NCBI GenBank assembly: GCA_964036195.1
Contig: OZ038454.1
Location: forward strand, 22,554,315-22,618,314
Origin: Sphaerolaimus hirsutus
Taxonomy: Eukaryota; Nematoda; Chromadorea; Monhysterida; Sphaerolaimidae
Length of the DNA stretch: 64,000 bases
Direction: 5' to 3'
The notes under the pieces are model-generated. The model was not told the DNA's origin. It saw only the letters and a program-made list of their open reading frames with translations, and made no database searches. Below are positions 25,553 through 56,401 of this stretch, piece after piece. A program made the position numbers and the translations under genes. Each line of letters opens with the position of its first letter. Position 1 is the stretch's first letter.

Positions 25553-27139
25553 TCAATTATTCACAAATCTTGGCTGCAACATATTGATCGGCACAGTCCA
25601 GTGCTTGCCATTGGTAAATTTGATCACAGCAGCCTTGGGTGACGGGAACGACTCGATTTCACCTTCTCTGGAGTTTGGAAGATCGAGCTTTGCTTTGCGG
25701 CTTCCCATTGCTGGAGCATCGCGTACAAAGACAGAATCGCCGATGTTGAATCGGGTGTTGGGATTGGTGGAGAAAGCAGCCATTGCAGCTTTCTGTTGTG
25801 TGGACTTGACACGCTCATTGACACGTTTCCAGAAGTCGATCAGCGGCGGTGCTGGCTCAAACTCGTGACCAGTTGTGGCGCGTTTTGAACCATAGTGGAC
25901 CTCAAATGGTGTAGCGCCAGTAGCCGAGTGTTCAGTCGCATTGTAGGCGGCCACTGCATCAGGCAGGATGTAGTTCCAGGCACGCCCATCATTGGCTCGT
26001 TTCTTTGCTAAGATGTCTTGCAGAGTACAAATAGCGCGTTCGCAAATGCCATTGCTCGTTTTTGATCCGGGAGTTGTTGTGTGCAGCTTTGTTTGATGCT
26101 TTTGCAACGTTGACTGGAATTCTTGGCAATTGAAGTGTGTCCCACTGTCAGTGACAACTTCTTCAGGCACTCCATGTGTGGAAACAATTTCATTGAACAA
26201 TTTGACTGCATTCTTTGCATCAGTTGCTGTGCAAGCCTTTGCTTCAATGAAACGCAACATTGCATCGATTGCAACAAGGCAGAATCGTGGACCCTTGTAG
26301 GTGTTTGGCATGAATGTTGAGTAATCCATGTGCCATCGGCGGCGTGGTTGGTCAGGAGGTGGTCTTGGCAGTAACGGCAGCACCTTGTAGCGAGTTGATC
26401 GCTGTTTGCAAATGTTGCACTGCTTGCAGTATGCTTGAACGTCAGCAGCCAACGTCGGCCACGTTTCATGTGAGTAGAAAGGTCGCAGTCGCTGGTACGT
26501 TTTCTGCGCACTTGCATGAGCTGCCCAGCGTCCTTCGTGATGCCACTGCAGCATCTCATCTCGTTCCTTTTTGTCAGCAAGAACGATGTTGTTGACAGCA
26601 GCTGGTTTTGTCAACTTTGCCAACATGTGTGATAATCGAATGTTGCACACAGTGTTGAGTGATGTTTCTGGCTCGTCGATTGTCTTTCCTCCCCCCATGC
26701 GGACAGGAATCGTGCCAGTTGGAGCTCGTGAAAGTGCATCAGCCACTTGATTCTTGATCCCCGGCTTGTAGCACAAAGTGACATCGAATTGCTGTAGTAC
26801 CAAGCACCAGCGGTACAGGCGGTGAGATGGGCTGTTCTTCTGGAACAGGTGGGTCAGTGGATTGTGATCAGTGAACACGGTCACCTTTTCTCCAGTGATG
26901 TATGGACAAAATGTTTCCAGCGCGTAAATCACGCCACGGGCTTCTAATTCTGTCGCAGAGTATCGTTTCTCAGCAGGTGCTGTCACTCTACTGGCAAATG
27001 CAATCGGGTGAAGTTGACCATTATCGTTGGCTTGTTCCAACATAGCGCCAAGTCCATCAGCACTAGCATCTGTGGTGATGACATAGTCTCGGCCTGGTAC
27101 GGGCATAGCAAGACTTCTTGGGTCACCATTTCTTGACAA
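25553..27139 (-). CDS. pol: gypsy pol, 3' part: RNase H and integrase
   Basis: A 528-residue frame. The start shows the RNase H core (TTDAS, later TELEARGV and FTDHNPL). Next comes an integrase with an N-terminal zinc motif (WHHEGRWAAH ... CKQCNIC), then the catalytic core: Asp in WHMDYS, Asp in VTDSGTHF and Glu in NGICERAI. The C-terminus ends in a short beta-rich tail. It is in a different frame from the upstream protease/RT part; the switch falls near 27105-27125. No deletion of a catalytic residue is seen. Confidence 0.9.
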   Translation of the reverse strand: MSRNGDPRSLAMPVPGRDYVITTDASADGLGAMLEQANDNGQLHPIAFASRVTAPAEKRYSATELEARGVIYALETFCPYITGEKVTVFTDHNPLTHLFQKNSPSHRLYRWCLVLQQFDVTLCYKPGIKNQVADALSRAPTGTIPVRMGGGKTIDEPETSLNTVCNIRLSHMLAKLTKPAAVNNIVLADKKERDEMLQWHHEGRWAAHASAQKTYQRLRPFYSHETWPTLAADVQAYCKQCNICKQRSTRYKVLPLLPRPPPDQPRRRWHMDYSTFMPNTYKGPRFCLVAIDAMLRFIEAKACTATDAKNAVKLFNEIVSTHGVPEEVVTDSGTHFNCQEFQSTLQKHQTKLHTTTPGSKTSNGICERAICTLQDILAKKRANDGRAWNYILPDAVAAYNATEHSATGATPFEVHYGSKRATTGHEFEPAPPLIDFWKRVNERVKSTQQKAAMAAFSTNPNTRFNIGDSVFVRDAPAMGSRKAKLDLPNSREGEIESFPSPKAAVIKFTNGKHWTVPINMLQPRFVNN

Positions 27140-28752
27140 ATCTTGTGGAAAAGTTGCTTCAACTCTTCAGTCCATTGCAGTTTTGTTCCATTAGTTTCGG
27201 CGGCTTGAAAATGTTTCCGCAGAGGTGCAAGGCGATGCGACAGGTTGTGATGAAACCTTCGCATGTAGCTCGCGAGTCCCAAAAATGAGGCGCCATCCTT
27301 CTTGGTGACAGGCAATGGGTAGTCGCGTATCGCAGCGGCTTTGTCTGGGTCGATGCTGATGCCATCAGCACTAATAACATGGCCCAGGTACTGGATTTTC
27401 TGTTTCAGGAAGTGACATTTTCGAGGGTTCAACCTCATACCAGTCTTGCATACTGTTGAAATCACAGCTTTCAGGTGCTCGATGTGCTTGTCCAATGTCG
27501 TGGATGCGATGATGATATCATCAAGATATGCCCGGCAGTATGCCTTGTGGTCCATCAAGATGTTGTTCATGGCGCGCTGGAAAGTCGCCGGCGCATTGTG
27601 AAGACCAAATGGCATGCGCTTCCATTCAAATAGCTGGTCGAGCGCAGTGAATGCGGTCTTGTGTTGATCTTCTTTCTTGATCCGAATGTTGTAGTAACCG
27701 CACTTGATGTCCAGCGTCGTGAAAAATTTTCGACCTGGCCACAAATCGAGCATGTCGTCCATGCGGGGCAGCGGGTAGCTGTCGCGTCGCGTGTTCAAAT
27801 TCAACTGCCGGAAATCCACACAAAACCTCCATGAGCCATCCTTCTTCTTGGCCAGTACAAATGCGCTGCTGTAATTGCTGTTTGATGGGATAATGCATCC
27901 TTGATCCAGCAAGTCCTTCAGCATTTTCTCTACTTCAGGACGCAGTTTGAGCTGGATGCGACGGGGTGGAACTTTGAATGGTCGCGTGTCACCAGTGTCG
28001 ATCTCGTGTTCGACCTCGGTGCAGCCAATTTCGTCAACATTCTGACAGGTTCCAGCCTTGTAGTCAGAGCTAAAAGCATGGCGCAGTGTGAATAGTTCAT
28101 TGACGACTTTCTGATGATCGGCTTCAGAGCATGTTCCGATGTTCAGCATTTTGGCCCAGTCATCCTTGCTCAACTTTTGTATCTCATTGATCACTGCTTT
28201 GGTAACTGGTTTCTGGTCATGTAGTGGCACATGGGCAGCTTTGATCGGCTGGCCCGCCTTGTCAGCAAATATCACGAGGGCAGATTCATCGTCTGCCTGC
28301 AGCTTGCAGTGTTGGATGAGTTTTCGGCATATTTCTGGTGACAAATCCACATCATCAGCTTCTGGTAACAGGTTGCTCCCGTCCGCAGCAGTCATGCGGA
28401 TGCCAAGCTTGGGCAGCAAATCCTCGCCGAGAAGAATATCGTAATCGATTTCATCAGACACAAAACATCTGTGTGTTGTCTTGCCGCCGGCATACTCGAT
28501 CTGAATGTCGACACAGCCGTCAGTGCTCAATGCTGAACCGTTTGCAGCATAGAGTTTTTCATTTGTCGGCTTTGGCAGCAGTCCTAGTTTCTTGATTACT
28601 TTTGATGTCACGATTGAAACGTCCGCACCATTGTCAGGTCGGCATGTCGAAAATGGGACCCCGTTCAAGTAGGCGGCTGGGCGGCTGACTCTATTGCACC
28701 CATTATTCTTCAAAATAGTCTCTTTGTATGCATGTTGAATGCGGTTGATCAC
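26983..28752 (-). CDS. pol: gypsy pol, 5' part: protease and reverse transcriptase
   Basis: A 589-residue frame directly after the gag stop and in the same frame. Residues 35-115 are an aspartic-protease region. The active-site box reads DNGADVSI, with Asn where Thr or Ser is usual, and a YDILLGEDLL block follows. The reverse transcriptase has FVLAKKKDGSWRFCVDFRQL, TLDIKCGYYNI, MPFGLHNAPATFQ and the catalytic YLDD, so it looks intact. After the RT connection (SFLGLASYMRRF) the frame drifts into a meaningless tail near 27110 and the RNase H continues in another frame. Confidence 0.92.
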   Translation of the reverse strand: MINRIQHAYKETILKNNGCNRVSRPAAYLNGVPFSTCRPDNGADVSIVTSKVIKKLGLLPKPTNEKLYAANGSALSTDGCVDIQIEYAGGKTTHRCFVSDEIDYDILLGEDLLPKLGIRMTAADGSNLLPEADDVDLSPEICRKLIQHCKLQADDESALVIFADKAGQPIKAAHVPLHDQKPVTKAVINEIQKLSKDDWAKMLNIGTCSEADHQKVVNELFTLRHAFSSDYKAGTCQNVDEIGCTEVEHEIDTGDTRPFKVPPRRIQLKLRPEVEKMLKDLLDQGCIIPSNSNYSSAFVLAKKKDGSWRFCVDFRQLNLNTRRDSYPLPRMDDMLDLWPGRKFFTTLDIKCGYYNIRIKKEDQHKTAFTALDQLFEWKRMPFGLHNAPATFQRAMNNILMDHKAYCRAYLDDIIIASTTLDKHIEHLKAVISTVCKTGMRLNPRKCHFLKQKIQYLGHVISADGISIDPDKAAAIRDYPLPVTKKDGASFLGLASYMRRFHHNLSHRLAPLRKHFQAAETNGTKLQWTEELKQLFHKICQEMVTQEVLLCPYQAETMSSPQMLVLMDLALCWNKPTIMVNFTRLHLPVE

Positions 28753-30306
28753 TCACTCTCGGTCAGTCTCATTCTCAGCCCCATACTGGACATGGTTGAC
28801 TTTCGATGGCTGCCATTCAGTTTTCATTGGCCGTCTGGTCGCATTGAATGGTCTGTTGCCATTGAATTGCCGTTGGCTGACGCAATCTTCAGTGTTGTGT
28901 GTGACAGAGTTGTGGAACGAACACCACTTGTCTGAATTTCGTCTGGCAGGGTAGCGATCAGCATTCGGTTGAAACTGTCGAGTTGGTGGGTTTCTTGGGG
29001 TGGGTGGGTATCGGCCACGGGAATTTTGTTGCCGGTTGATGGTGCGGCCCATCGATGGTGCGCTGCGCTGATTTCTTGGTCCGCTAGTTGCAGAATTCTT
29101 GGCCATTGCAAGCGCCGTTGTGCACTCATTTGTGGAGTGTCCTCTGCTGTTGTGGAAGATGCAAAAGGAATCCATTGGCTTGCCACTTGTCTTTGCTCTC
29201 TTTTCCGCAAACTCTATTCGCTCAGCATTGTCGATCAGCTCCTTGAACGACATCATTTCAAACGTTGGCAGCGTGTACAGCGTGTTTTGTAGCGACTGGT
29301 TGTGCAGCCCTGTCATGAAGTGGTGCTTCAGCTGTATTTTGAGCGCAGCTGGCTGGGTGTCCGGTAATGCCTGGCGAACCAAACTGTCGACAAATAGTCC
29401 AAAATCTCGGACATGGTCCTTTGGTCGCTGGCGCAGGTTCAACAATTTGTTCATTGCATTCTGGGCGGCAAAGTGGTCACCATACTGCGACTCCAAAAAT
29501 TCACACACTTGCTCAAATGTCTCCCGATCCTCCTCTGGCAGTCTCTCAAATTGGCGTAGGGCGCGTCCTGACAGGCACTTGCGCACATGAATAATGGCAA
29601 ATTCATCAGGAACTTCGGTCAGCTTGATGCGCGCCTTGAGGTCATTGATCCACAGCTTGAATTTCAACGGGTCCTCGCCATCGAACGTTGGAAATCGCTC
29701 TTCTAACAGCGGAGCCCACAGCCGTTTCTCATGTGCTGCATACTTGGGTGACAATTCTGGTTTACTCTCGCTGATGTGCGTTGAGCTCTGGTTTTCAGCC
29801 GAGGAAAATTTGTTGGCCAGAAGGGAGAGGGCCTCCGTTTGTTTGTCCATCATCGCAGCTTGTTGATCCATTATGGCTTGGGTCTGTCGGTCTTGTCGCT
29901 CCATCATAGCTTGCGACTGTTTGGCTTGTTGCTCCATCATGGCTTGTGTCTGTCTAGCTTGTTGATCCATCATCGACTGCATAAACATGCACAACTGCGT
30001 GACCAGTTCGGGTGATTGAGGCGCAGATGCTGATGCAGATGGTAGTGCAGATGATGGTGTGGCAGAAGTTGCCAACGGTTTCAGTAGATCAGTCACGCCC
30101 GTGTCACGGATCGAGGTAGCCACTGTCTTCAGCTTTGTCCCGTAGCGATCGAAGGCTATCTTGCGCCATACTTCCTCGTCTTCGGATAAGTCAGCTGGAT
30201 TGTGGCTCCTGAGAATATTTCTGAGCTGATGCAATTTGTCGCGGTCCTTGCTCGTGACTGATTGATCGACATAGCCAATGAAGGTATCCAACGATAGCGT
30301 TGACAT
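28753..30306 (-). CDS. gag: gypsy gag
   Basis: 517 residues, starting at the ATG nearest the leader. About residues 100-155 contain tandem 10-12-residue repeats of the MMxQQxxQTQA type, likely a coiled coil. The middle has a retrotransposon-gag capsid-like region (FPTFDGEDPLKFKLWI, RQFERLPEEDRETFEQ). The C-terminus has two Cys-x2-His-x4-His-x4-Cys boxes (CIFHNSRGHSTNEC and CSFHNSVTHNTEDC), where classic knuckles have Cys at the second position. It ends at TGA, with pol continuing at the very next codon in the same frame. Confidence 0.92.
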   Translation of the reverse strand: MSTLSLDTFIGYVDQSVTSKDRDKLHQLRNILRSHNPADLSEDEEVWRKIAFDRYGTKLKTVATSIRDTGVTDLLKPLATSATPSSALPSASASAPQSPELVTQLCMFMQSMMDQQARQTQAMMEQQAKQSQAMMERQDRQTQAIMDQQAAMMDKQTEALSLLANKFSSAENQSSTHISESKPELSPKYAAHEKRLWAPLLEERFPTFDGEDPLKFKLWINDLKARIKLTEVPDEFAIIHVRKCLSGRALRQFERLPEEDRETFEQVCEFLESQYGDHFAAQNAMNKLLNLRQRPKDHVRDFGLFVDSLVRQALPDTQPAALKIQLKHHFMTGLHNQSLQNTLYTLPTFEMMSFKELIDNAERIEFAEKRAKTSGKPMDSFCIFHNSRGHSTNECTTALAMAKNSATSGPRNQRSAPSMGRTINRQQNSRGRYPPTPRNPPTRQFQPNADRYPARRNSDKWCSFHNSVTHNTEDCVSQRQFNGNRPFNATRRPMKTEWQPSKVNHVQYGAENETDRE

Positions 30307-30372
30307 GGTGGTGTTGACTGGTTCACGTCACGTCGTGATGAGGGTCGCTGTAGTTCAGCTGTCACTGCATTT

Positions 30373-45970: not shown

Positions 45971-46260
45971 AGCGGCGTTTACACGGTTTCGTGTGGCGAC
46001 AAAAAAAACGAGCGAAGAAGTTCCATAATTCCGGAATAAAGTTCCATATCTGCAAGGAAAGGCACTGAAGTATACTCACTAGTCAAGTGTACACACATGC
46101 CAATTTGCAGATAATTTGCGCCTATCGTTCAAAACTTGAAAGCAAATTACACTTGTCGGTTCGGTTTCAAAACGAAAACCGAACCGACAAGTGTAATTTG
46201 CTTTCAAGTCTTGAACGACATGCCCTAATTATCTGCAAATTGGCATGTGTATACACTCAA
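45971..46260. mobile_element. Palindromic Harbinger-like MITE, left part
   Basis: Begins AGCGGCGTTTACAC after TAA (45968-45970). Together with 56402-56520 it forms a palindrome of about 400 bases: the inner arms pair at 46083-46260, and the outer arm pairs with the distant right part. The matching TAA at 56521-56523 is the 3-bp duplication typical of PIF/Harbinger elements. The LINE at 46261 interrupts the right arm. Confidence 0.85.
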
Positions 46261-46278
46261 GGCCGTCGAAAAAGAAAA

Positions 46279-49200
46279 ATGCAACAGAAGAAAGGAAGGG
46301 GGGCAGGTAACGAATTGGAGATCGTAGGTGGGCACCGAGGTGTTGCGTCAGTTCCAGAAGGAACCACGCACGCTCGGCTGGCCTTGGACGACTTTCGACG
46401 GCTGGGAAATGGCAATCTCAACCGGACGGAGAACAAAACCTCTGCCTGGAAGAGTGCCAGCTGGTTTCGCAAAGTCTCAACGGCCGCCATCTTTGACAAG
46501 AAAAAAGCGGCGACACTTATTTTTGGCACATTCATGATGTGCAAATGGAACAATTGGGCCGGCAGTGATATCGACACCATAAACGGACATTTGTCAAATT
46601 GCTTGTCGGTTCAAGGTGTCGATATAGAACAATCACCCGCGGGAAATGTTTCAACTGAGTGCGCTGCACTAGAACACTTCGCTAAGTGGAATGAATCGAG
46701 GGCTGGACATTTCTACAACTGTACGGAGTACGAGTGTGGGGTCAACACGAAAAAGAAAAATCGTGAAAAACGGCGTCAACGCACGATTGAAAAACTCGGG
46801 CGCAATGCGCATGGTGAGTCTTATCCGGATAGCGGGATAAAATCCGCGGCCGGTGAGAATAAATCGCATACCACTCGCAGTAAATGGCCGATAAATCCCG
46901 CGTCAACAAATCACTGGACAGCGCTAAACTACTCGGGTCGACGGCGGACAGAACGATTTCGAGCGCGGATTCGAGTGTCGACTCAACACTCGAAATCGAC
47001 GAGCGGTCGACAGGCGTGCAAACTAGGAGCAGTCGTCGGCCATCCGCGTACGTGCCGCGACACGAATTGCAGCGGCGGGAGGCGAAAAGAGCGAGGGTGG
47101 ATAGTTTGGTCAGTTTTCGATTTTCGGAGTTCCGGTAAACTTTTTGGGAGGGCAGCTGCGGTTTTGGGAGGGATCAGGTGTAATTTGTCGAATGACAAGC
47201 GGCACAACACTGCGTGTGGCGGTAATGTCAATACCCCCAAGCACAGCGATGGGCCTCGGCGATATTCTAATAGCGAGTATTTTTGGAACGATGCCAAAAA
47301 CAGCGAAAGTTCAAATGTGAGTAGGAAAAGCCATAAATTGGCTAAGTTGAAAACAGTTTCTCCGCTAGAAAAATGGCGCGCAAAAACGATGGCCGGGGGG
47401 AAGGTGGAAAATTGTCAATACGGAGGGGTGTCTCTGAATTTTACACCACTGTGTATTGATATAATGCGACATCATTTTCAGGTGGAGGAAAGAAAAATCA
47501 AACGGGCAGACAGCTTTTCGAAAGGGCGCGCGATGGAGTCGTCGCAGACAAGCCCGGTGCCGGCAGACGTCTACAACACGCGCGAGAAAATGGAGAAAAT
47601 GTCCCACGACGAGAAGCTGGATCACCTGAACAGACTGGTGGACAGTCGCGGCGACACCCTGCAGACAGTTAGGGACTTCGTGAGTGCGATCGAGTTCGAC
47701 CTGAAGAAAAAAGGCACCCCGGTTAGTGGGTTGAGTAGGGTAACACGATTAATTGATAAATTAGAAGCGCTTGCTGTTACTGAGTGTAGGGGAAATGTGG
47801 CAGCACAAAGCACAGTGCAAATTTCTACTCAGGTTGACCACGCTGTCTGCGCTGAAAATCTATTGGGCGGCCTGAAAGCGTTAAATAGGGCCGTAAATCT
47901 ATCGGCTCAAATAGATCTGGGGCAGTCAGTGGTTGTGAACAGTGAATTGGATGAAATGAAAAAAGAAAATGCAGTGTTGCGCGGGGAATTAGCGAAGCAC
48001 GGCGAGTTATTTTCTCGGCTGCAATCGCTAATGGCCGCCAAAGGGTGGTCGTTCGACGTCGACTCGTCCACCTTATTTTTGGTGTCGAGCACGATGCCGC
48101 AAGACCCGTTCTCGCTGTATTTCCCGAACGAATTTGTCATGGCCAAAACAAACTGGCGTTGCATATGCGTTGCGCTCATTTTTGATAAGGGGGTGCGCTT
48201 ATGCGACGAAAGTTTGAAAACGGAAGCGCTGAGGCTAAATAGTCAATATGCGCCCTGGAACAGCGACGCGCCTGTAGTTGTGAAGCGGGCTTTTCTGGAC
48301 TGGCGTAGTAGGGCCTGGGCGGCGTACTACAGCAAGGACAAAGACGAGAAGAGAGTGCAGCAGTGGTACGACTGGAAAATCGACAACGTGGATGTCATGA
48401 AACAGACACCACTGTACCAGTCTATGAGAAGTGTCCTGCTTTCCGTTATAACCGGATGCAGGCGCTTCTCGGCGTACCTCAGCTGGATCACTGGGAAGCA
48501 TGTCGTGAATGCTTGCAAACACGACGAGATCCTGGGCATGGGCTTCAACAAGACAAATTGGGACGGCATCACGATGCCCCGTGACCCTCGTTACCTGAAC
48601 ATTTACGGCGTGGCGCTTATGGATGTGCGCGATGTCGGAAATCCGGGCGCGAACGTCACTGAAGATGAAAAAGAAGCGTACATGGACGAGTGGGTGAACT
48701 ACGAGAGCGAGAATATGTGGACTTTGGGCGCCAAACTGACCGAGCACAAATCCAGGGCCGAGGAATTAGCCATTGGTAGAGTTGGGGAAAAATTTGCAAT
48801 TCTTTCTGTGCAACATTGGGTTAATTTTGTCATGAAAGATGCTCGGGTAGAAGGTGAAATAATTGAGCTAGACCTGGGGGGTAAAACTATCACAAAGTTT
48901 GTAGGATGTCCACCCCCTATCTCTGCGTACTACTTGAATTGCGCAGGTGACGAGCCAAAGGGCGGCCGCGAGCGCAGCAAAAGCAAATCCAAAGAGTCCG
49001 GCAAGGAAAAGGGCAAGGACAAGGACAAGGACAAGAAAAATGTCAGCACGGACAGCGAGGACGCACGACTGGATAAGTCTGAGGTGAGGCAGCGTTACTC
49101 GTTAGTAGTGGATGTAAATCCCTTGTGCGAGTGGATTGGAGCGGTGACTGAGCAGACGGGGGTCAGAACAGCCGAAACAATCTGCTCGCACTCGCCGGAC

Positions 49201-52200
49201 GTAATAAATTGGGTTCGGCGCGCGCTTCTGGTAGATTCACAGGGGGGTGAGGTAAATTGGAACACACCGGTAGCTAGTGATCAGCTCGGAAACACGACTA
49301 TTAGCGAGGTTCTGCGCGGATTGCGCTACGCGTGCGGTGACTGGCAGCCGTGGTTAGACAAAAGCTTTAACTACAAGAAAAACTGGCGGCTGCCAAAGTG
49401 GGCGGAGACTCCGCCCAGGTTTGGCGGGCCAAGCGATCGATTCTGCAAAAACACTGAATTCGGACAGGATAGGGGCGGAGATCGCAATCAGTTGCAACTG
49501 GGCATCCCGACCCAGTTCTGTCCGATTTCGGTTTGGCTGCTAGGGGACAGCACGGCGACTGGTGAATTCCGGGTGAACCTACAAAACATGCTGCGAGGGT
49601 CGGTGCAGTCCGGGCTTGGCGACGCGCGCAGGCGCTTCGACCTATGCTATGTGTCAACGCTGTGCGAAGTGTACCGCGGGTGTCGCTTGGCGATTATGAA
49701 AGGTGCCTGCGATTTGCAAGTGTGGGAGTATGTCGGGGCCGTTATTATAAAATCGGTGCTAGACTACTTCGACACTGTCTACCTGACGGTACGCGACGCG
49801 TCTACATTTTGGATGGAGATGTTTGTGCAGAATGTGTACACCATGTGCGCACAGCTGCGCAGATGCCTGAGCGAGTCCGGCAAGCCGCATGTGCCGATCG
49901 TCGTGTGCGTGACGCAGCCGCTTTACCCGCCGCAGCCGGGGCTGGCGCAGAATGAGCAGGTGCTGTCCAGCCTGTTGCTATTAGGCAGGGACATCGAATC
50001 GGCGCTTAAGTACGCGTGCAGCACGATAAACGGTGTTGTAATCGTACAACCGGTGCACTACGTGTTGCGCAATCATGAAAACTTGAATGCGTACACGTGT
50101 GAAAATACTGCGATGGGGCTATGCAACGGCATCGTGAATGCCGATGGCTTGCATTTGTCACCATATGGGGCGGCTCTAATGGCGCGCATTATCTCCCGCG
50201 AACTTGTCTTCTACCTACACGATCATGGGTGCACGACAAAGGGAAGGTGTGTCTGGACAAGTAGGGCAAACCCATCTCATGTACAACGCACAAATACTAC
50301 TATTATCACAGGTGGCTTCAGCGTCTCGGCGTGGAGAGTCACGAAAACGTACGAAGTCGGGCGGAAGCGGAGACACTCGGCGGAAATCGAAAGAGCGCAG
50401 GAAAAGTTGGTTTACTTTGAAGAGCACTGTAGTGATACTTATAGTACAACATCTATAAATCACACTAATCCGACTCAGATAGCAAAACTGGCAGTCCTGG
50501 GGGCTCTCGGCGAAATTCAGTATCCGACCGCGGTGATCGCCGCGGCGGCAGCGGGGGGCCGGCCGACCGTGGTTCGGACCGCGGCCCTAGCAACTGGGGC
50601 GGGCGCTTCTTCCAGCGCGGCGGGCGTGGGAGGTGTGTTGGTAAAATTGCTCACAGTATCGTGCACGCCAGTAGGATGTCTACTCATCAACATTACCCTT
50701 AAGGTCGGGCGGTGGCTACCGTGGGCGCGGCGGGTCCCAGTACGGGGCCGATCGCGGCGAGTACTTCGAGGGCGGCCGCGGCGACTACTACGAGGGGGAC
50801 CGCAGAATGGGCCGCGGGGACTACTTTCGGAAAGGGCCCGGGCGCTGGGAGTAGGAAGTAGAAAAACTCCTGGTTGGTTATCACTAGAAACAGCATTGAA
50901 CTTGTTTCTGATGCTGTGTGCTGCTAGAACACTTGCGCGCTTCACTGTGGTATCATTGAAAAATATTGAAATTCTGGCCCTGGTACAAACAAACATATTT
51001 CCCTTCAGATCTGGATCGCATTACGTCTGCATCCTTGTCAGGAGGGCTGTTAGAGGGCTAGTTTTCGCAGTACGGGTGAAAAAGGGACTACCTTCAAAAT
51101 GTTTGATCTGTGTAACTTCAATTTTACTTAAGTTTCTGTTGGTTGTGTCTGCTGCGAGAAAGTGTCAGCTGACAGGCTTAGCAAAAACTCCCAAAGTGGG
51201 CGTAAGTAACGAGTCACACCAATCACAGATATCACATCAAACACTGGACCTAAATGGGACGGCTACAAACAAAAACGCTTGGGTAAATACCCGACTAAAT
51301 CAACAGTGCGAAGCTTTTCACAAGCACGAAACTCAAGGGGGGGCAACACTGACTGGGAAAATGCGACACAATGAGAGCGATGATTTTATAAACTTAACGT
51401 TCCAGAATGTGCATTCGGTGAAAAATAAGAAAATTGAACTAACAAATTTGTTCAAAACGGGGGCAAATGATGTGATAGGCCTAGTGGAAACGAATATGCT
51501 CAGTAACGTCGACATACCACCTGCAAACGACTATGACTCATTCGCCAAACACAAAAAAGTTGGGGCAGCTGGGACAGGTGGTTTGCTGCTTATGGTGAAA
51601 AAGGGGCTACAAGCGATGGCGGACGGAGACGACTTTTTGGACAAAACTGACCAGGTGCTTTCAGTCGGGTTCAACCTAGACTCCGGTCGTAAGATGCACG
51701 TTGCTATTGTTTACATGCACGACTACGGTAAAGTGTGCAGGGACGTTCGATACATGCATGAAAATATGTGCATATTGGACGGCTTGCATAACCTGAAAGT
51801 GCGACTAGACGAACAAGGTGATGATTTATGCATACTCGGGGATTTCAATGGGCATATAGGGAATGATGAACTAGGCTGCAGCCAGAATACAGCAACAGTG
51901 AACAAAACAGGGGAACTGATAAGAGGCTGGATGGTTGCAGATAGCTGGGAACTTTGTAATAGGCAAGCTGAGCAGTGGTGGTCATTCGAGAGTGGAAAAG
52001 TTAGAACGCTATTGGATCTCGCTCTGGTAGACTCAACCAAGGGGCCGCTCTATAGAATAACACTTTCTAATGGACTGCCGGGTGTATCGTTATTATCCGA
52101 CCACTCGGCTATCCATTTGAAACTTGAACAAAACGGGTTCACCTGTCGTAAGATCACTCATCAGAAAAACTGGACTGTCTCGGGAGCAGAGAAGGCTAGG

Positions 52201-54750
52201 CGTTTTGGAACTGAAATGGAGACCTACCTAAGCAATACTAGCGCGATATGCAATGACTACAACAGCCTACATACCGCTCTCTTAGCAGTGGCAGCACAAA
52301 AGTTTGCAAAGCGGAGATCAACACATGCGGCTACACCGGTTGAAAAGAAACTTAAGTCTGCAAAAAGGGAAATTCAAAAACTTCGTCGCAAATTCCATCG
52401 AGGCGCAATCCAATATGAGGAATTCAAGGGGCTAAAGAAAATCCAACGAGACCTCATGTGGGATGCAGAAAAGGAAGGGCGAGAACATGAAATGCAGAAG
52501 TCCCTCGATAGGGAATTAGCAAGCTCAGGGGCGGACACCGATCTATATCGACTGGCGAAGAAATACCGATCTGCGGGCGTCAAATATGCAATGCTCAGAA
52601 TGGCAGACGGCAAAATGGCGCAAAGTGATGAACAGGTGGTAAGCGTACTCAAAGACTTCTGGGGCCGTATCCAAACACCGAACCCAATGTCAAGTGAGGT
52701 AATGCTAGAACCTATCATGAAAAACATCATTCTCTCACACGACAAGCCAGGGCTGTTCTCTGACATCGATGCCGCCGAAGTAAAGTTCTGCTGCAACAAA
52801 CTTAAGTTGGGAAAATCGGAAGGTACAACGCAAATTACGCACGAAATGCTACGCCATCCGGGGGGACATCTGCTGCATATATTACAGACTATATTCAACA
52901 GATGGCTCAACGGGGAGGCAATACCTGAAGTCGCAAAAACATGCAAATTAATACTGCTGCATAAAAAGGGATCAAAAAGTGATGTCAACAATTACAGGAC
53001 AATCGGATTGCAATGCAACATTCTAAAGCTCTACTGCTCAATTCTGAACAGACGCCTATTGCGTGCGTTTGAAAGCGGCAACGGTTTTGGCGATATGCAA
53101 GGGGGTTTTAGAAAGGGACGGAGAACGACAGATAACCACATTGTGATGCAAGGGTGCCTATCGGAAACAAACAACCTCTCGTGCTGTTTTGTTGACGCAG
53201 TTAAGGCGTTTGACAGAGTACCGCGAGAACGTTTGTGGACAAAATTGGAACACTTCGGCTACCCCGGTAAATTTGTACAAGCTTTAGCGGGGACATATGC
53301 CGACCAGAAGTGTTTCTTGCAATATGGCCACATCACAACAAACCTACTAGAGTACAGATTAGGGGTTAGACAGGGATGTTGCCTATCACCCAGTCTTTAT
53401 GTCGTCTATATGGCGGATCTGAGGGTTGCTTTGGAGAAAACCGGGAAAGGGGCATTACTTGAAAACAGACGAGTACCAGCAGTCTTTTTCGTCGATGACA
53501 TTGTGCTGATGGAAAATAGATCGCTGGACCTCCAGGGGCTCATGCACCAATTTTCACAGTGGGCTTGGGCTTCAGGGGTGGCAATCAGCCCTTCAAAAAG
53601 TCATGTTTTACACTTCAGACAAAAAGCTGACAAGGAGAAGATTTGGGAACTAGGTTATGACAAGCACAAAAACTTACAAAGAGTCATAGAGGTGGACGAG
53701 ACGAAATATCTAGGACTAACTCTTACAAGCTCCAAAGACCCTTTCGACAAACAGAAACGACTATATATAGAATGGGCCTACGGGGCGCGCGTATTGATCA
53801 ATGAAATTGCCTGCCACAGCATGCGACCACTATGGGCGGTAAAACGCATGTGGACCCTCTATGCAGTTTCAAAAGTATATTACGGCGTGGAGATTGTAGG
53901 GCTGAACAAATCTGCACAGGACAAGCTAGTGTCGGTTGAGCTCTCGATATATCGGAAATTGATCGGGGCTCCAAGAGGTCTGACAAACAGAATGCTCGCC
54001 ATAGAAGCAGACATGATATCAATGCGAGGCTGGTTTGCAATAAAAGTAATGGAGATGGACAGATATGTAAGAAGCGGAAAAATCTCATCTACAACGAGGT
54101 TAGCGGCACAAGTATGGGGTAGAACAAGAAATGGTCAAAATCGGAAAAACAGCATCTCCGGACGGGCGCATGAGGCGCAGAATTGGCTTTTCAAGGACAA
54201 ATCGGCGGAAACGATTGTAACAAAAAACATGCTTAAGGATACAGCAAAATATGCAGCGTGGGAATGTTTATCTAGTCGAGCGACAAGCGGGAAAAACTCA
54301 AGGCAGCATGAGAGAGAGTGCTACGACCACATCACACCGATCTGCCCGGACACGCTGTCAGTGAAAGAAATCGAATGGTTTCTATTCCGACACGGCGTTC
54401 TGTCAAAACTGGATCAAATTGCTCTAAAACGGGGTGCTATGTGTTGGATGTCATGCCCCCTCTGCAACAGCAGAGGTGTCGACCTTTGGCTAACAAACAA
54501 ACACATCCTCGAAAATTGCCCTCACGACTCGACATTGATCTGGAGACATCGGTTACTAGGTTCTCTTAGGGCGGATTGCTGTGAAAACAAGTGTAGAGAT
54601 AACGCTAGAGAAAATTTAAGCGCTACTCTATCGTCAACTGTTTGTCGGTTTACTCGAGCGACAGTGAGCAAATCGCTGTGTGAATTCGAGGAATACCTAG
54701 ACGACTTTGCGAAACAGCAGCATCCACATACGTCTCCGACAATAGCTTAG
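46279..54750 (+). CDS. LINE polyprotein frame: ORF1 (SGNH) fused in frame to ORF2 (EN-RT)
   Basis: Starts at the ATG 19 bases from the LINE 5' end; about 2823 codons. Residue numbers here count from an in-frame ATG 64 codons upstream in the MITE (46087). About 480-640: acidic coiled-coil region. About 960-990: Lys/Asp/Ser-rich. 1150-1390: SGNH/GDSL esterase with catalytic Ser1155 in GDST, and Asp1353 and His1356 in DGLHLS. 1759-2010: AP-like endonuclease with Asn1774 (QNV), Glu1801 (VETN), Asp1919 (GDFNGH) and Asp2005-His2006 (SDHSAI). 2250-2560: reverse transcriptase with Asp2370 (FVDAVKAFDR) and FVDD at 2470-2471. About 2790-2811: C-terminal Cys-x2-Cys-x12-His-x4-Cys. No catalytic residue is missing. 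ORF2 alone could start at ATG 51361. Confidence 0.88.
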   Translation: MQQKKGRGAGNELEIVGGHRGVASVPEGTTHARLALDDFRRLGNGNLNRTENKTSAWKSASWFRKVSTAAIFDKKKAATLIFGTFMMCKWNNWAGSDIDTINGHLSNCLSVQGVDIEQSPAGNVSTECAALEHFAKWNESRAGHFYNCTEYECGVNTKKKNREKRRQRTIEKLGRNAHGESYPDSGIKSAAGENKSHTTRSKWPINPASTNHWTALNYSGRRRTERFRARIRVSTQHSKSTSGRQACKLGAVVGHPRTCRDTNCSGGRRKERGWIVWSVFDFRSSGKLFGRAAAVLGGIRCNLSNDKRHNTACGGNVNTPKHSDGPRRYSNSEYFWNDAKNSESSNVSRKSHKLAKLKTVSPLEKWRAKTMAGGKVENCQYGGVSLNFTPLCIDIMRHHFQVEERKIKRADSFSKGRAMESSQTSPVPADVYNTREKMEKMSHDEKLDHLNRLVDSRGDTLQTVRDFVSAIEFDLKKKGTPVSGLSRVTRLIDKLEALAVTECRGNVAAQSTVQISTQVDHAVCAENLLGGLKALNRAVNLSAQIDLGQSVVVNSELDEMKKENAVLRGELAKHGELFSRLQSLMAAKGWSFDVDSSTLFLVSSTMPQDPFSLYFPNEFVMAKTNWRCICVALIFDKGVRLCDESLKTEALRLNSQYAPWNSDAPVVVKRAFLDWRSRAWAAYYSKDKDEKRVQQWYDWKIDNVDVMKQTPLYQSMRSVLLSVITGCRRFSAYLSWITGKHVVNACKHDEILGMGFNKTNWDGITMPRDPRYLNIYGVALMDVRDVGNPGANVTEDEKEAYMDEWVNYESENMWTLGAKLTEHKSRAEELAIGRVGEKFAILSVQHWVNFVMKDARVEGEIIELDLGGKTITKFVGCPPPISAYYLNCAGDEPKGGRERSKSKSKESGKEKGKDKDKDKKNVSTDSEDARLDKSEVRQRYSLVVDVNPLCEWIGAVTEQTGVRTAETICSHSPDVINWVRRALLVDSQGGEVNWNTPVASDQLGNTTISEVLRGLRYACGDWQPWLDKSFNYKKNWRLPKWAETPPRFGGPSDRFCKNTEFGQDRGGDRNQLQLGIPTQFCPISVWLLGDSTATGEFRVNLQNMLRGSVQSGLGDARRRFDLCYVSTLCEVYRGCRLAIMKGACDLQVWEYVGAVIIKSVLDYFDTVYLTVRDASTFWMEMFVQNVYTMCAQLRRCLSESGKPHVPIVVCVTQPLYPPQPGLAQNEQVLSSLLLLGRDIESALKYACSTINGVVIVQPVHYVLRNHENLNAYTCENTAMGLCNGIVNADGLHLSPYGAALMARIISRELVFYLHDHGCTTKGRCVWTSRANPSHVQRTNTTIITGGFSVSAWRVTKTYEVGRKRRHSAEIERAQEKLVYFEEHCSDTYSTTSINHTNPTQIAKLAVLGALGEIQYPTAVIAAAAAGGRPTVVRTAALATGAGASSSAAGVGGVLVKLLTVSCTPVGCLLINITLKVGRWLPWARRVPVRGRSRRVLRGRPRRLLRGGPQNGPRGLLSERARALGVGSRKTPGWLSLETALNLFLMLCAARTLARFTVVSLKNIEILALVQTNIFPFRSGSHYVCILVRRAVRGLVFAVRVKKGLPSKCLICVTSILLKFLLVVSAARKCQLTGLAKTPKVGVSNESHQSQISHQTLDLNGTATNKNAWVNTRLNQQCEAFHKHETQGGATLTGKMRHNESDDFINLTFQNVHSVKNKKIELTNLFKTGANDVIGLVETNMLSNVDIPPANDYDSFAKHKKVGAAGTGGLLLMVKKGLQAMADGDDFLDKTDQVLSVGFNLDSGRKMHVAIVYMHDYGKVCRDVRYMHENMCILDGLHNLKVRLDEQGDDLCILGDFNGHIGNDELGCSQNTATVNKTGELIRGWMVADSWELCNRQAEQWWSFESGKVRTLLDLALVDSTKGPLYRITLSNGLPGVSLLSDHSAIHLKLEQNGFTCRKITHQKNWTVSGAEKARRFGTEMETYLSNTSAICNDYNSLHTALLAVAAQKFAKRRSTHAATPVEKKLKSAKREIQKLRRKFHRGAIQYEEFKGLKKIQRDLMWDAEKEGREHEMQKSLDRELASSGADTDLYRLAKKYRSAGVKYAMLRMADGKMAQSDEQVVSVLKDFWGRIQTPNPMSSEVMLEPIMKNIILSHDKPGLFSDIDAAEVKFCCNKLKLGKSEGTTQITHEMLRHPGGHLLHILQTIFNRWLNGEAIPEVAKTCKLILLHKKGSKSDVNNYRTIGLQCNILKLYCSILNRRLLRAFESGNGFGDMQGGFRKGRRTTDNHIVMQGCLSETNNLSCCFVDAVKAFDRVPRERLWTKLEHFGYPGKFVQALAGTYADQKCFLQYGHITTNLLEYRLGVRQGCCLSPSLYVVYMADLRVALEKTGKGALLENRRVPAVFFVDDIVLMENRSLDLQGLMHQFSQWAWASGVAISPSKSHVLHFRQKADKEKIWELGYDKHKNLQRVIEVDETKYLGLTLTSSKDPFDKQKRLYIEWAYGARVLINEIACHSMRPLWAVKRMWTLYAVSKVYYGVEIVGLNKSAQDKLVSVELSIYRKLIGAPRGLTNRMLAIEADMISMRGWFAIKVMEMDRYVRSGKISSTTRLAAQVWGRTRNGQNRKNSISGRAHEAQNWLFKDKSAETIVTKNMLKDTAKYAAWECLSSRATSGKNSRQHERECYDHITPICPDTLSVKEIEWFLFRHGVLSKLDQIALKRGAMCWMSCPLCNSRGVDLWLTNKHILENCPHDSTLIWRHRLLGSLRADCCENKCRDNARENLSATLSSTVCRFTRATVSKSLCEFEEYLDDFAKQQHPHTSPTIA
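46884..47108 (+). other. Alternative ORF1 start exon of the LINE
   Basis: ATG at 46884 in a different frame opens 75 codons (MADKSRVNKSLDSAK..., Ser/Arg-rich) up to TTG before GTCAGT. Splicing to the acceptor ATCATTTTCAG before 47482 restores the long frame exactly at VEERKIKRAD. Both frames are open here, so which is used is an inference. Confidence 0.45.
50312..50854 (+). other. Spliced RGG-rich C-terminus of LINE ORF1
   Basis: Three out-of-frame segments join in phase through GT-AG introns: 50312-50405 (basic, KRTKSGGSGDTRRKSKER), intron 50406-50478, 50479-50632 (GDRRGGSGG ... GGRFFQRGGRGR), intron 50633-50703, 50704-50854 (SGGGYRGRGGSQYG ... KGPGRWE and TAG). The result is an RGG/Tyr-rich nucleic-acid-binding tail and an ORF1 stop at 50852-50854. 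The link from the long frame at about 50246-50250 is least certain (donor GTGTGT or GTCTGG). The long frame reads GC-rich nonsense across the same DNA. Confidence 0.55.
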
Positions 54751-54988
54751 GGGTTGCTAAGGAACTTTTAACCTCATGTAAGTAAATTTTATATGACAGA
54801 ATTACTAACAAATTTTGTAACCCCATTAAGGCACTGAGCGTGCAGAGTTCGAACGAAAGAGGGGTATAGAGACACTTTCTCGCAGCACTTGATACACTGA
54901 TTCTACTTGCGATCTCAATGATAATATGTGTATGACAAATGTGCATTTCTTTGAGTAAACAATGTTATGGCCTTTGTATAGTTATGAG

Positions 54989-56151
54989 CAACGATGGGTA
55001 AGTTCTCCAAAAAAAAACACTTTCTGTGTTTTGAGTTTTTCAAAAATGAATACCTGTGTTTTGAGTTTTTTTCTCGAAAAAAACTTGAGTAACTCTGTTT
55101 TTATTTCTGTGTTTTTTTGTAAAAACTCGAGTTTTTTTGAGTTTTTTTCTAAAAAACTTGAGTTTTTTCCAAAAAATTCGAGTTTTCCCCCCAAAAATTC
55201 TATTTACAGCATTTCTATCTGGAAACAGTGGTTTTCTTATAAAATATTGGTTTTACACATGTTTTAACCCCACATAACATTTGTGTATTCATTCAAGTGT
55301 CAAAAAAGTCCATAAAAATGTCCACAATGAGGACATCAACATCACAACACCAGCAACAAAATGCCCAGAAATGACAATTTACGCAGTACTCCAAAATTCT
55401 TCAATGGATGTGCACTGTATGGAAGACTACGGAATTGATTTGAACTACAACTACCATTTACCTCGAAATACCCCCATGGGGGTTTATTATTTCATCAGAA
55501 AGTTTTGTAAGGATCATAGAAAAAAGTAGACATTTACGTACCCAAAACAAGTTATAAATGCGTACAAACAGGATATATTTGAAATAAACATGTAGATAGC
55601 TATACAACCTAGTACAGTCTATATGTAGCTGCAATGCAAATTAGCAGTAATAAATACATCAAGTACATTGGATACATGATGTATATCATCCCGGAGGGGG
55701 CTATTTCGAGGGGGGGCTTATTATTTCACCAGTCCATTTTGAGGGGGGTTAATTCAAGGGGGGGTTAATTCGAGATAATAAGGTATACTTAAATGTCAAA
55801 ACTTAAATTGTCAAATCCACCATGAGATGTGCATGCCATCTTGAATTTCTTTTTTTGTACCATTATAAAATATGAATACATTATGTACATATTTACATAC
55901 TATACATGCTTATCTTATCTTGTTTAGTTTAACTGAATTAATGGGCATTCAACCGCTTCGCTGAAAAAAACACAAAAACTCAAAAAAACTTTTCTGTGTT
56001 TCCGTGTTTCTGTGTTTCTGTGTTCTCCAAAAAAAACTCAATTGAGTTTTGAGTTTTTCAAAATTTATGAGTTTCCGTGTTTCTGTGTAAAACAAAAACA
56101 CAGAAACTCAATGAGTTTCTGTGTTCAATTTCTGTGTTTTTTCCATCGTTG
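54989..56151. mobile_element. Non-autonomous hAT in the LINE 3' UTR
   Basis: GTTATGAG at 54981-54988 and 56152-56159 is an exact 8-bp duplication; ends CAACGATGG and CCATCGTTG. Each end carries CTGTGTTTTGAGTTTTT words (55015-55190 and 55965-56140). No transposase. It holds a MITE (55452-55785). Confidence 0.93.
55452..55785. mobile_element. MITE nested in hAT nested in LINE nested in MITE
   Basis: TACCATTTACCTCGAAATA opens and TTCGAGATAATAAGGTA closes, with TTATTATTTCACCAG and GGGGGGTTAATTCAAG words of the family. Confidence 0.8.
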
Positions 56152-56401
56152 GTTATGAGTACATGTTACGTGATTTTATTAGGGGGATTAAGGGGTCACT
56201 TATTAAAACGTGAGCTCTTGTCCCCATCGCAATTCATGTTGAAATATATCTGTTATATTTTTCGATTCGCTTCGCATTTCGACGCTTGACTTTTTTGGTG
56301 GTTATAAGTTACTTCGTTCTACGCGCTAGTGGCTTATTCTTTTTTGGTATTACCCTTTTGACGCGCGCCGGCAGAGCGGTAATAAAGTTGAATTGAATTG
56401 A

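Follow-up and report, generated by a model that had tools for sequence, protein, structure and literature searches.

A nematode LINE with stop-free introns and a predicted splicing switch between ORF1 and an ORF1–ORF2 fusion

It has long been asked how a LINE obtains much ORF1 protein and little ORF2 protein from a single RNA; the known answers are forms of reinitiation, frameshifting or readthrough. A LINE in the nematode Sphaerolaimus hirsutus raises the question of whether splicing could be another. It lies in a stretch of 64,000 nucleotides (contig OZ038454.1, positions 22,554,315 to 22,618,314, forward strand; hereafter the window), for which the original prediction proposed that splicing ends ORF1, whereas the unspliced RNA fuses ORF1 to ORF2. 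Comparing the element with copies from the same genome (348 Mb), we arrived at a reading that we consider probable: a LINE whose spliceosomal introns, six or more in number, all lack stops in one and the same frame, and in which retention of the introns at the border of ORF1 and ORF2 would yield an ORF1–ORF2 fusion and full splicing ORF1 alone.

One frame across an APE-type LINE

The element and its enzyme-coding part are laid out as follows; f+0 denotes the long frame, and f+1 and f+2 the other two frames.

46268..56397, plus strand: the LINE, interrupted by a later insertion (54989–56151)
46279..54747, plus strand: f+0 (the long frame), without a stop between the element's first ATG and the end of EN–RT, ORF1 and linker included
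50858..51370, plus strand: linker, open in f+0 only, with mild f+0 constraint (window–L018, P = 0.012; pooled near copies, P = 0.032)
51390..54747, plus strand: EN–RT (endonuclease and reverse transcriptase) in f+0; Pfam RVT_1, E = 4.4e-27, and Exo_endo_phos, E = 3.8e-6

The 5′ end is marked by two copies with different flanks, L015 and L017, which begin at 46269 and 46268. Copies L014 and L016 are 5′-truncated, starting from 49087 and 50310, and both extend to 56397. Alignments of L014–L018 to the window stop at 54988, restart at 56152 and run to about 56397; the insertion between these points, within the LINE's 3′ part, is in none of the five and opens with stretches rich in T-runs and A-runs. 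The endonuclease match precedes the RT and lies above the Pfam cut-off, and the top PDB match of EN–RT is LINE-1 ORF2p (E = 3e-19). With an RT, an APE-like endonuclease and 5′-truncated copies that share a 3′ end, the element is an APE-type LINE (a non-LTR retrotransposon). Pfam found no GIY-YIG endonuclease, a Penelope trait, in the window, L054 or L055, where Exo_endo_phos was found instead, and no integrase domain, a trait of copia (LTR) elements, in ORF1 or EN–RT, with the APE endonuclease in its place; descent from either kind is thus not indicated. A protein search with the RT gave 356 matches, the 120 listed being 24–36% identical. Elsewhere in the window (25553–30327, minus strand), three ORFs of 524, 589 and 537 amino acids resemble, by eye, the gag, protease–RT and RNase H–integrase of an LTR retrotransposon.

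ORF1 yielded fainter similarities. A NADAR-like stretch (PF08719) at 48370–48633, also present in L023, L054 and L055, scored E = 0.0036–0.054 and 14–18 bits, below the cut-off of 35.1, and esterase (SGNH) motifs were recognized by eye, with a weak Pfam SGNH match in L054 (E = 0.18). A PDB profile search of two ORF1 parts gave no match, two single-sequence folds of ORF1 parts were poor (pLDDT 38.8 and 30.9), and a protein search with the spliced ORF1 passed 0 of 7994 scored candidates. CR1-like LINEs have an APE endonuclease, an RT and an esterase in ORF1; the window element has such an endonuclease and RT and, in ORF1, a block that may be esterase-like. CR1-like LINEs have plain ORFs and are not known to contain introns, whereas the window element has introns.

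The near copies are 97% (L014), 96% (L015), 98% (L016) and 95–97% (L017, with an internal deletion) identical to the window. L018 is 83% identical over 50536–54991, again with an internal deletion, L019 67–82%, and L020–L023 about 64–70%. Two distant subfamilies, L054 and L055, share 41% identity with the window in EN–RT and 35% and 32% in ORF1; L057 and L058 are short pieces of distant subfamilies. An RT search of the genome placed at least 18 loci (window included) of the 99 scored among 1002 candidates in open frames no shorter than 2400 codons, 15 of the 18, counted from the table, having no stop inside the match; these frame lengths were confirmed on DNA for the window, L014–L020, L054 and L055 only. 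L021 and L022 (C9) are near-identical, lie about 12.6 kb apart in opposite orientation and are perhaps an inverted duplication.

The original prediction that the frame runs from the LINE 5′ end into the endonuclease and RT without a stop holds: from stop to stop, f+0 spans 46069–54750, or 2893 codons, and its first ATG within the element, at 46279, lies 11 bases from the 5′ end. In long stretches outside the conserved cores of the window, L018, L019, L020, L022, L023, L054 and L055, f+0 contains 0 stops against 6–44 in each other frame. The counts (f+0/f+1/f+2) are 0/15/22 for window 46324–47481, 0/15/6 for the window linker and 0/8/12 for the 5′ part of L018; L019, L020, L022 and L023 give 0/19/10, 0/27/15, 0/24/7 and 0/24/13; and the 5′ part and the ORF1-to-EN stretch give 0/37/44 and 0/43/30 in L054 and 0/30/27 and 0/28/24 in L055. 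None of 2000 mononucleotide shuffles of window 46324–47481 was stop-free, nor was any of the linker, and the same held for all nine stretches shuffled, from the window and copies, at 2000 shuffles each. L015 does carry f+0 stops: two lie in the 5′ part, ORF1 has one, and another comes early, near the RT end. Stops in f+0 between ORF1 and EN, which the original prediction had pointed to as contrary evidence, occur neither in the window, L014–L020 and L023 nor in L022 up to about 51200, where homology ends; L016, L017 and L018 cover this part only from 50310, 50424 and 50536. The L021 linker is shifted in frame because 2 nt have been inserted there; L022, its near-twin, does not have them. At about 51000–51045 in the linker, a short block, HY[VF]C[IV] in f+0, is kept among otherwise diverged copies (window, L018, L019, L020, L022 and L023).

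One way to read such a frame is as a single, unspliced giant polyprotein with disordered stretches that evolve fast, the readings in other frames being shadows of GC-rich sequence. The frame is also open in relatives of 3219 and 3038 codons, and some f+0 constraint is found in exon 3 (below) and the linker, as this explanation would have it; the intron and frame evidence of the following sections goes against it, and we regard it as highly improbable. A second explanation accepts the introns and holds that the sole use of an open f+0 is to spare unspliced RNA from decay or to let ribosomes scan it, EN–RT being made otherwise, for example by an alternative splice from a 5′ AUG to EN–RT. In its favour, amino-acid change in the introns and the 5′ part is near-neutral and yet stops are missing there, and the frame is open from the 5′ end to the RT in L017 and L018, which are without most of ORF1; the mild amino-acid constraint in the linker argues against it, as does L019 (below), and we judge it unlikely. 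The distinct in-frame deletions of L017 (C1, about 47461–50423) and L018 (C7, about 47578–50536) leave one frame each, of 1840 and 1751 codons; we rejected these deletions as spliced giant introns because their junctions are not GT–AG.

Comparing Met positions before EN across near copies, we found no common AUG close to EN–RT, a point in favour of the fusion. The nearest in-frame Met upstream of the EN motif lies 162 codons away in L014, L015 and L017, 297 in L018 and 12 in the window and L016; the distances of 25 codons in L019, 76 in L020, 21 in L054 and 60 in L055 are a point against the reading that we prefer.

Introns within ORF1 and their loss in L019

Upstream of the border, ORF1 resolves into the following exons and introns, the coordinates of A3 being hand-read from the L019 alignment and the length of A being taken from the window only.

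46884..47108, plus strand: exon E1 (ORF1 N-terminal), read in f+2, with AGTAAATGG just before it, also in L019 and L023
47109..47481, plus strand: intron A, 373 nt (1 mod 3), TTTG|GTCAGT...TTTTCAG|GTGG; stops 0/5/10, none in f+0
47482..50246, plus strand: ORF1 core exons, in f+0, with A2 and A3 lying between them; they hold the weak NADAR-like stretch and the esterase-like block GDST...DGLHLSPYG
47722..47832, plus strand: intron A2, 111 nt (3n), CCCCG|GTTAGT...ACTCAG|GTTGAC; no f+0 stop
48776..48946, plus strand: intron A3, 171 nt (3n), CATTG|GTAGAG...GCGCAG|GTGACG; no f+0 stop

All three introns are missing from L019. Where the window has A2 and A3, L019 reads CCCCG|GTCGAT and CATTG|GTGACG, so that both losses are exact at GT and AG. 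The loss of A is codon-exact, ...AKRARVDSL|VEERKIKRADSF in the window corresponding to ...AKKQRTDSL|VQERKSRRADSF in L019; this comparison is a by-eye alignment of translations, the nucleotide alignment being scattered there. A2 and A3 are present at matching positions and phases in L023, L054 and L055, so it is L019 that lost them. Both introns are 3n in the window, L015, L023, L054 and L055. An earlier candidate, a single 5′ intron at 46324–47481, was dropped, as L019 revealed a coding exon in f+2 inside it.

Three introns precisely missing from one copy imply that RNA of this family was spliced and reverse-transcribed, and these border-exact losses speak against the unspliced polyprotein. 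The simplest cause is that L019, one copy, is a fossil of reverse transcription of an RNA from which the ORF1 introns had been spliced out and in which the border introns B, C and D, all retained by L019, were kept. The original prediction had allowed only unspliced RNA as a template; this was too strict, as a partly spliced RNA appears to have served too. In L019 the frame runs from the E1 ATG through ORF1 into EN–RT with one stop, in ORF1. A template stripped of its ORF1 introns that, this stop apart, still joins the ORF1 core to EN–RT in frame counts against a frame kept open only for decay escape or scanning. A3 is similar as protein between L054 and L055, and may for this reason often be retained in RNA.

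Tests for an excess of synonymous change bear on the frames of the exons; the pairs have sequences in common and so lack independence, and the number of tests is large. E1 shows such an excess in f+2 in comparisons with L018 (P = 0.0000), L019 (P = 0.005) and L023 (P = 0.0025), L015 and L017 differing there by only 4 and 3 changes, and L054 and L055 have a similar f+2 stretch at this position by eye. The ORF1 core is constrained in f+0, with w of 0.03–0.06 over 47484–47560 (L015, L018), and at 50150–50246 f+0 constraint reaches P = 0.0000 in 6/6 pairs.

Border introns and the frames of the ORF1 tail

Between the ORF1 core and the linker lie three introns and three short exons.

50247..50311, plus strand: border intron B, 65 nt from 50247 (AAG|GTGTGT) or 61 nt from the alternative donor 50251; acceptor end ...ATCACAG
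50312..50405, plus strand: exon 2, with a spliced reading in f+1 (RS-rich) and/or f+2
50406..50478, plus strand: border intron C, 73 nt (1 mod 3)
50479..50632, plus strand: exon 3, RGG-rich in f+2 and constrained in f+0 too
50633..50703, plus strand: border intron D, 71 nt (2 mod 3)
50704..50855, plus strand: exon 4, RGG/Tyr-rich in f+1 with stop TAG at 50853–50855; the alternative f+2 reading stops at 50859–50861

The 73-nt and 71-nt GT–AG introns of the original prediction are present, and the joined tail reads as described, to the TAG. Its count of two introns was too low: with B, A, A2 and A3 there are at least six, and an N-terminal exon in another frame. Its weakest point, a first junction near 50250, is an intron with its acceptor at 50311 and its donor at 50247 or 50251, the RGG reading needing 50251.

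In each border intron the class of length modulo 3 is fixed among copies, and no f+0 stop occurs, even in subfamilies 41% identical in EN–RT. From the 50247 donor, B is 2 mod 3 in the window, L014, L015 and L019–L023 (59–65 nt, GTGTGT and AG kept in all) and in L054 (161 nt), L055 and L057 (101 nt each) and L058 (68 nt). C is 1 mod 3 in the window (73 nt), L019 (61), L020–L022 (91) and L023 (70), and in the distant copies L054 (64), L055 (70), L057 (79) and L058 (76). D is 2 mod 3 in the window and L014–L019 (71), L020 and L022 (68) and L023 (71, hand-read), and in L054 (242), L055 (113), L057 (107) and L058 (218); its acceptor is lost in L015, which has AAT in place of AAG. The intron ends stay constant while the interiors drift, again contrary to a single polyprotein. 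Window stops (f+0/f+1/f+2) number 0/0/1 in 50251–50311, 0/1/5 in 50406–50478 and 0/2/1 in 50633–50703. In one host gene, alpha-tubulin (L056, C14:17922900–17924600), the donors are GTGAGC, GTCGGT and GTGGGA, and all three introns have stops in every frame; a 442-codon open frame listed for this locus is contradicted by the DNA, with stops in all frames between exons.

Synonymous excess in f+0 across introns B, C and D appears in 1/19 pair tests (D, window–L019, P = 0.049), and by this measure they are apparently read but hardly shaped as protein. The exons between them behave otherwise. Exon 2 shows the excess in f+1 in 4/6 pairs (P < 0.05), in f+2 in 3/6 (P < 0.02) and in f+0 in 0/6; with E1, it is constrained in other frames and not in f+0, which the polyprotein does not predict. 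In exon 3, f+0 is favoured in 5/6 pairs (P < 0.04) and in L054–L055 (P = 0.0145) and L055–L058 (P = 0.01). Its RGG frame, f+2, shows the excess in 0/6 pairs of the window's family and in L055–L057 at P = 0.0005. Exon 4 shows synonymous excess in no frame, either in the 7 pairs of the window's family or in pooled near copies (f+1 P = 0.22, f+2 P = 0.998). Exons 2 and 3 thus look dual-coded. The original prediction had named conservation in the long frame only as grounds for abandoning it; exon 2 departs from that pattern, while exon 3 is itself constrained in f+0.

Which frames the spliced tail uses depends on the donor of B. From 50251, the exons are read in f+1, f+2 and f+1 (RS, then RGG), ending at 50853–50855; from 50247, they are read in f+2, f+0 and f+2, ending at 50859–50861 with no RGG tail. 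That the spliced ORF1 takes the 50247 route has, in our view, a lesser but real chance. B plus C from 50247 is 3n in the window, L054, L055, L057 and L058, so D alone would then decide between fusion and stop. The 50247 donor type is conserved in all examined copies that have this junction, and is the better conserved of the two: in several copies 50251 is weak, and in L055, L057 and L058 it is GC; the f+2 signal in exon 2, the f+0 signal in exon 3 and, in L055–L057, an f+2 signal in exon 4 (P = 0.0275) fit this route. The f+2 result for L055–L057 in exon 3 and the pooled f+2 value for exon 4 do not, and RGG composition recurs in five lineages (window, L054, L055, L057 and L058) in matching frames, f+2 in exon 3 and f+1 in exon 4, with one stop in L054 exon 3 and a tail layout in the other four as in the window.

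Codon usage, in a test trained on ORF1, likewise prefers the RGG frame of exon 4, in the window (f+1, 0/500), L054 (0.01) and L055 (0.007). For exon 3 it favours the RGG frame in the window (f+2, P = 0.034) and L054 (0.007) and f+0 in L055 (0.037), and exon 2 is clear in no copy; the test is noisy, giving f+1 P < 0.03 also for A2, A3 and the linker and f+1 P = 0.007 for L054 exon 1. Both donor routes may be used. The spacing of two donors by 4 nt, considered as a telling sign, proved weak evidence, since it follows from the donor pattern GTNNGT. The choice of donor alters the tail and not the switch, as both routes end ORF1 at the same place.

A candidate switch and its relatives among retrotransposons

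Comparison of copies demonstrates conserved GT–AG units, the exact loss of three of them in L019, and, in several subfamilies, an f+0 that stays open across the introns and the linker. On the switch reading, RNA that keeps B, C and D would be translated as an ORF1–ORF2 fusion, the source of EN–RT, and RNA without them would leave f+0 and terminate where exon 4 ends, so that only ORF1 is made, with a tail that is probably RGG-rich and RNA-binding. Splicing would then set how much ORF1 protein is made relative to the fusion. A copy derived from RNA without B–D would have lost the capacity to encode the fusion; this would account for the persistence of the border introns and for the fact that those in ORF1 can be shed. 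Action of the switch in cells is inferred from DNA, as is, above all, the RGG tail. Against this reading weigh the RGG frames of exons 3 and 4 without synonymous support in the window's family, the weak or GC 50251 donor in copies, the noise of the codon-usage test, the protein-like A3 of L054 and L055, the single copy with intron loss and the shifted L021 linker.

The layout, a continuous unspliced frame from ORF1 to RT in which splicing shifts the frame to a stop, is of the copia/BARE type. BARE1, a Ty1/copia LTR element of barley, is described as having a facultative GT–AG intron of 104 nt within a single genomic frame; splicing shifts the frame to a stop just after Gag, so that spliced RNA encodes Gag only and unspliced RNA the fusion (PMC3735527). 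The likeness to BARE1 is read here at the level of DNA, and BARE1 is an LTR element with one intron; the LINE in the window is of the APE type, has six introns or more and tail exons that overlap, and includes among its copies a fossil of a partly spliced template. In copia, splicing takes out nearly all of pol (PMC3735527), and EVD (Ty1/copia) has a spliced short GAG mRNA alongside an unspliced GAG–POL mRNA (PMC8892269); a short spliced RNA beside an unspliced one would be common to these and the LINE, although copia and EVD are LTR elements. In Penelope-like elements introns can pass through transposition, and a Pen5 ORF is reported to have a spliceosomal intron (PMC3846280); these elements differ in their GIY-YIG endonuclease and Penelope RT, and the account drawn on here describes no ORF1/ORF2 splicing switch (PMC3846280). 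A literature search at the level of titles and abstract openings, covering mostly freely available papers, found no LINE with comparable introns.

We are evenly divided on a fuller picture, in which a LINE radiation keeps its introns translatable and has three states: a giant frame from the 5′-terminal AUG, a partly spliced fusion, and a spliced ORF1 with a tail in two frames set by donors 4 nt apart. Intron retention, rather than frameshifting or reinitiation, would set ORF1:ORF2 in this radiation, and intron loss would record the template RNA. If the switch is real, splicing would answer the question of ORF1:ORF2 in a LINE, much as it does in LTR elements of the copia type. The persistence of introns in a retrotransposon would be explained as well, since the enzyme is no longer encoded once the border introns are gone from the RNA, and the presence of introns in each copy would record how far its template had been spliced. 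The many stop-free introns in one genome would offer a natural test of intron translation.
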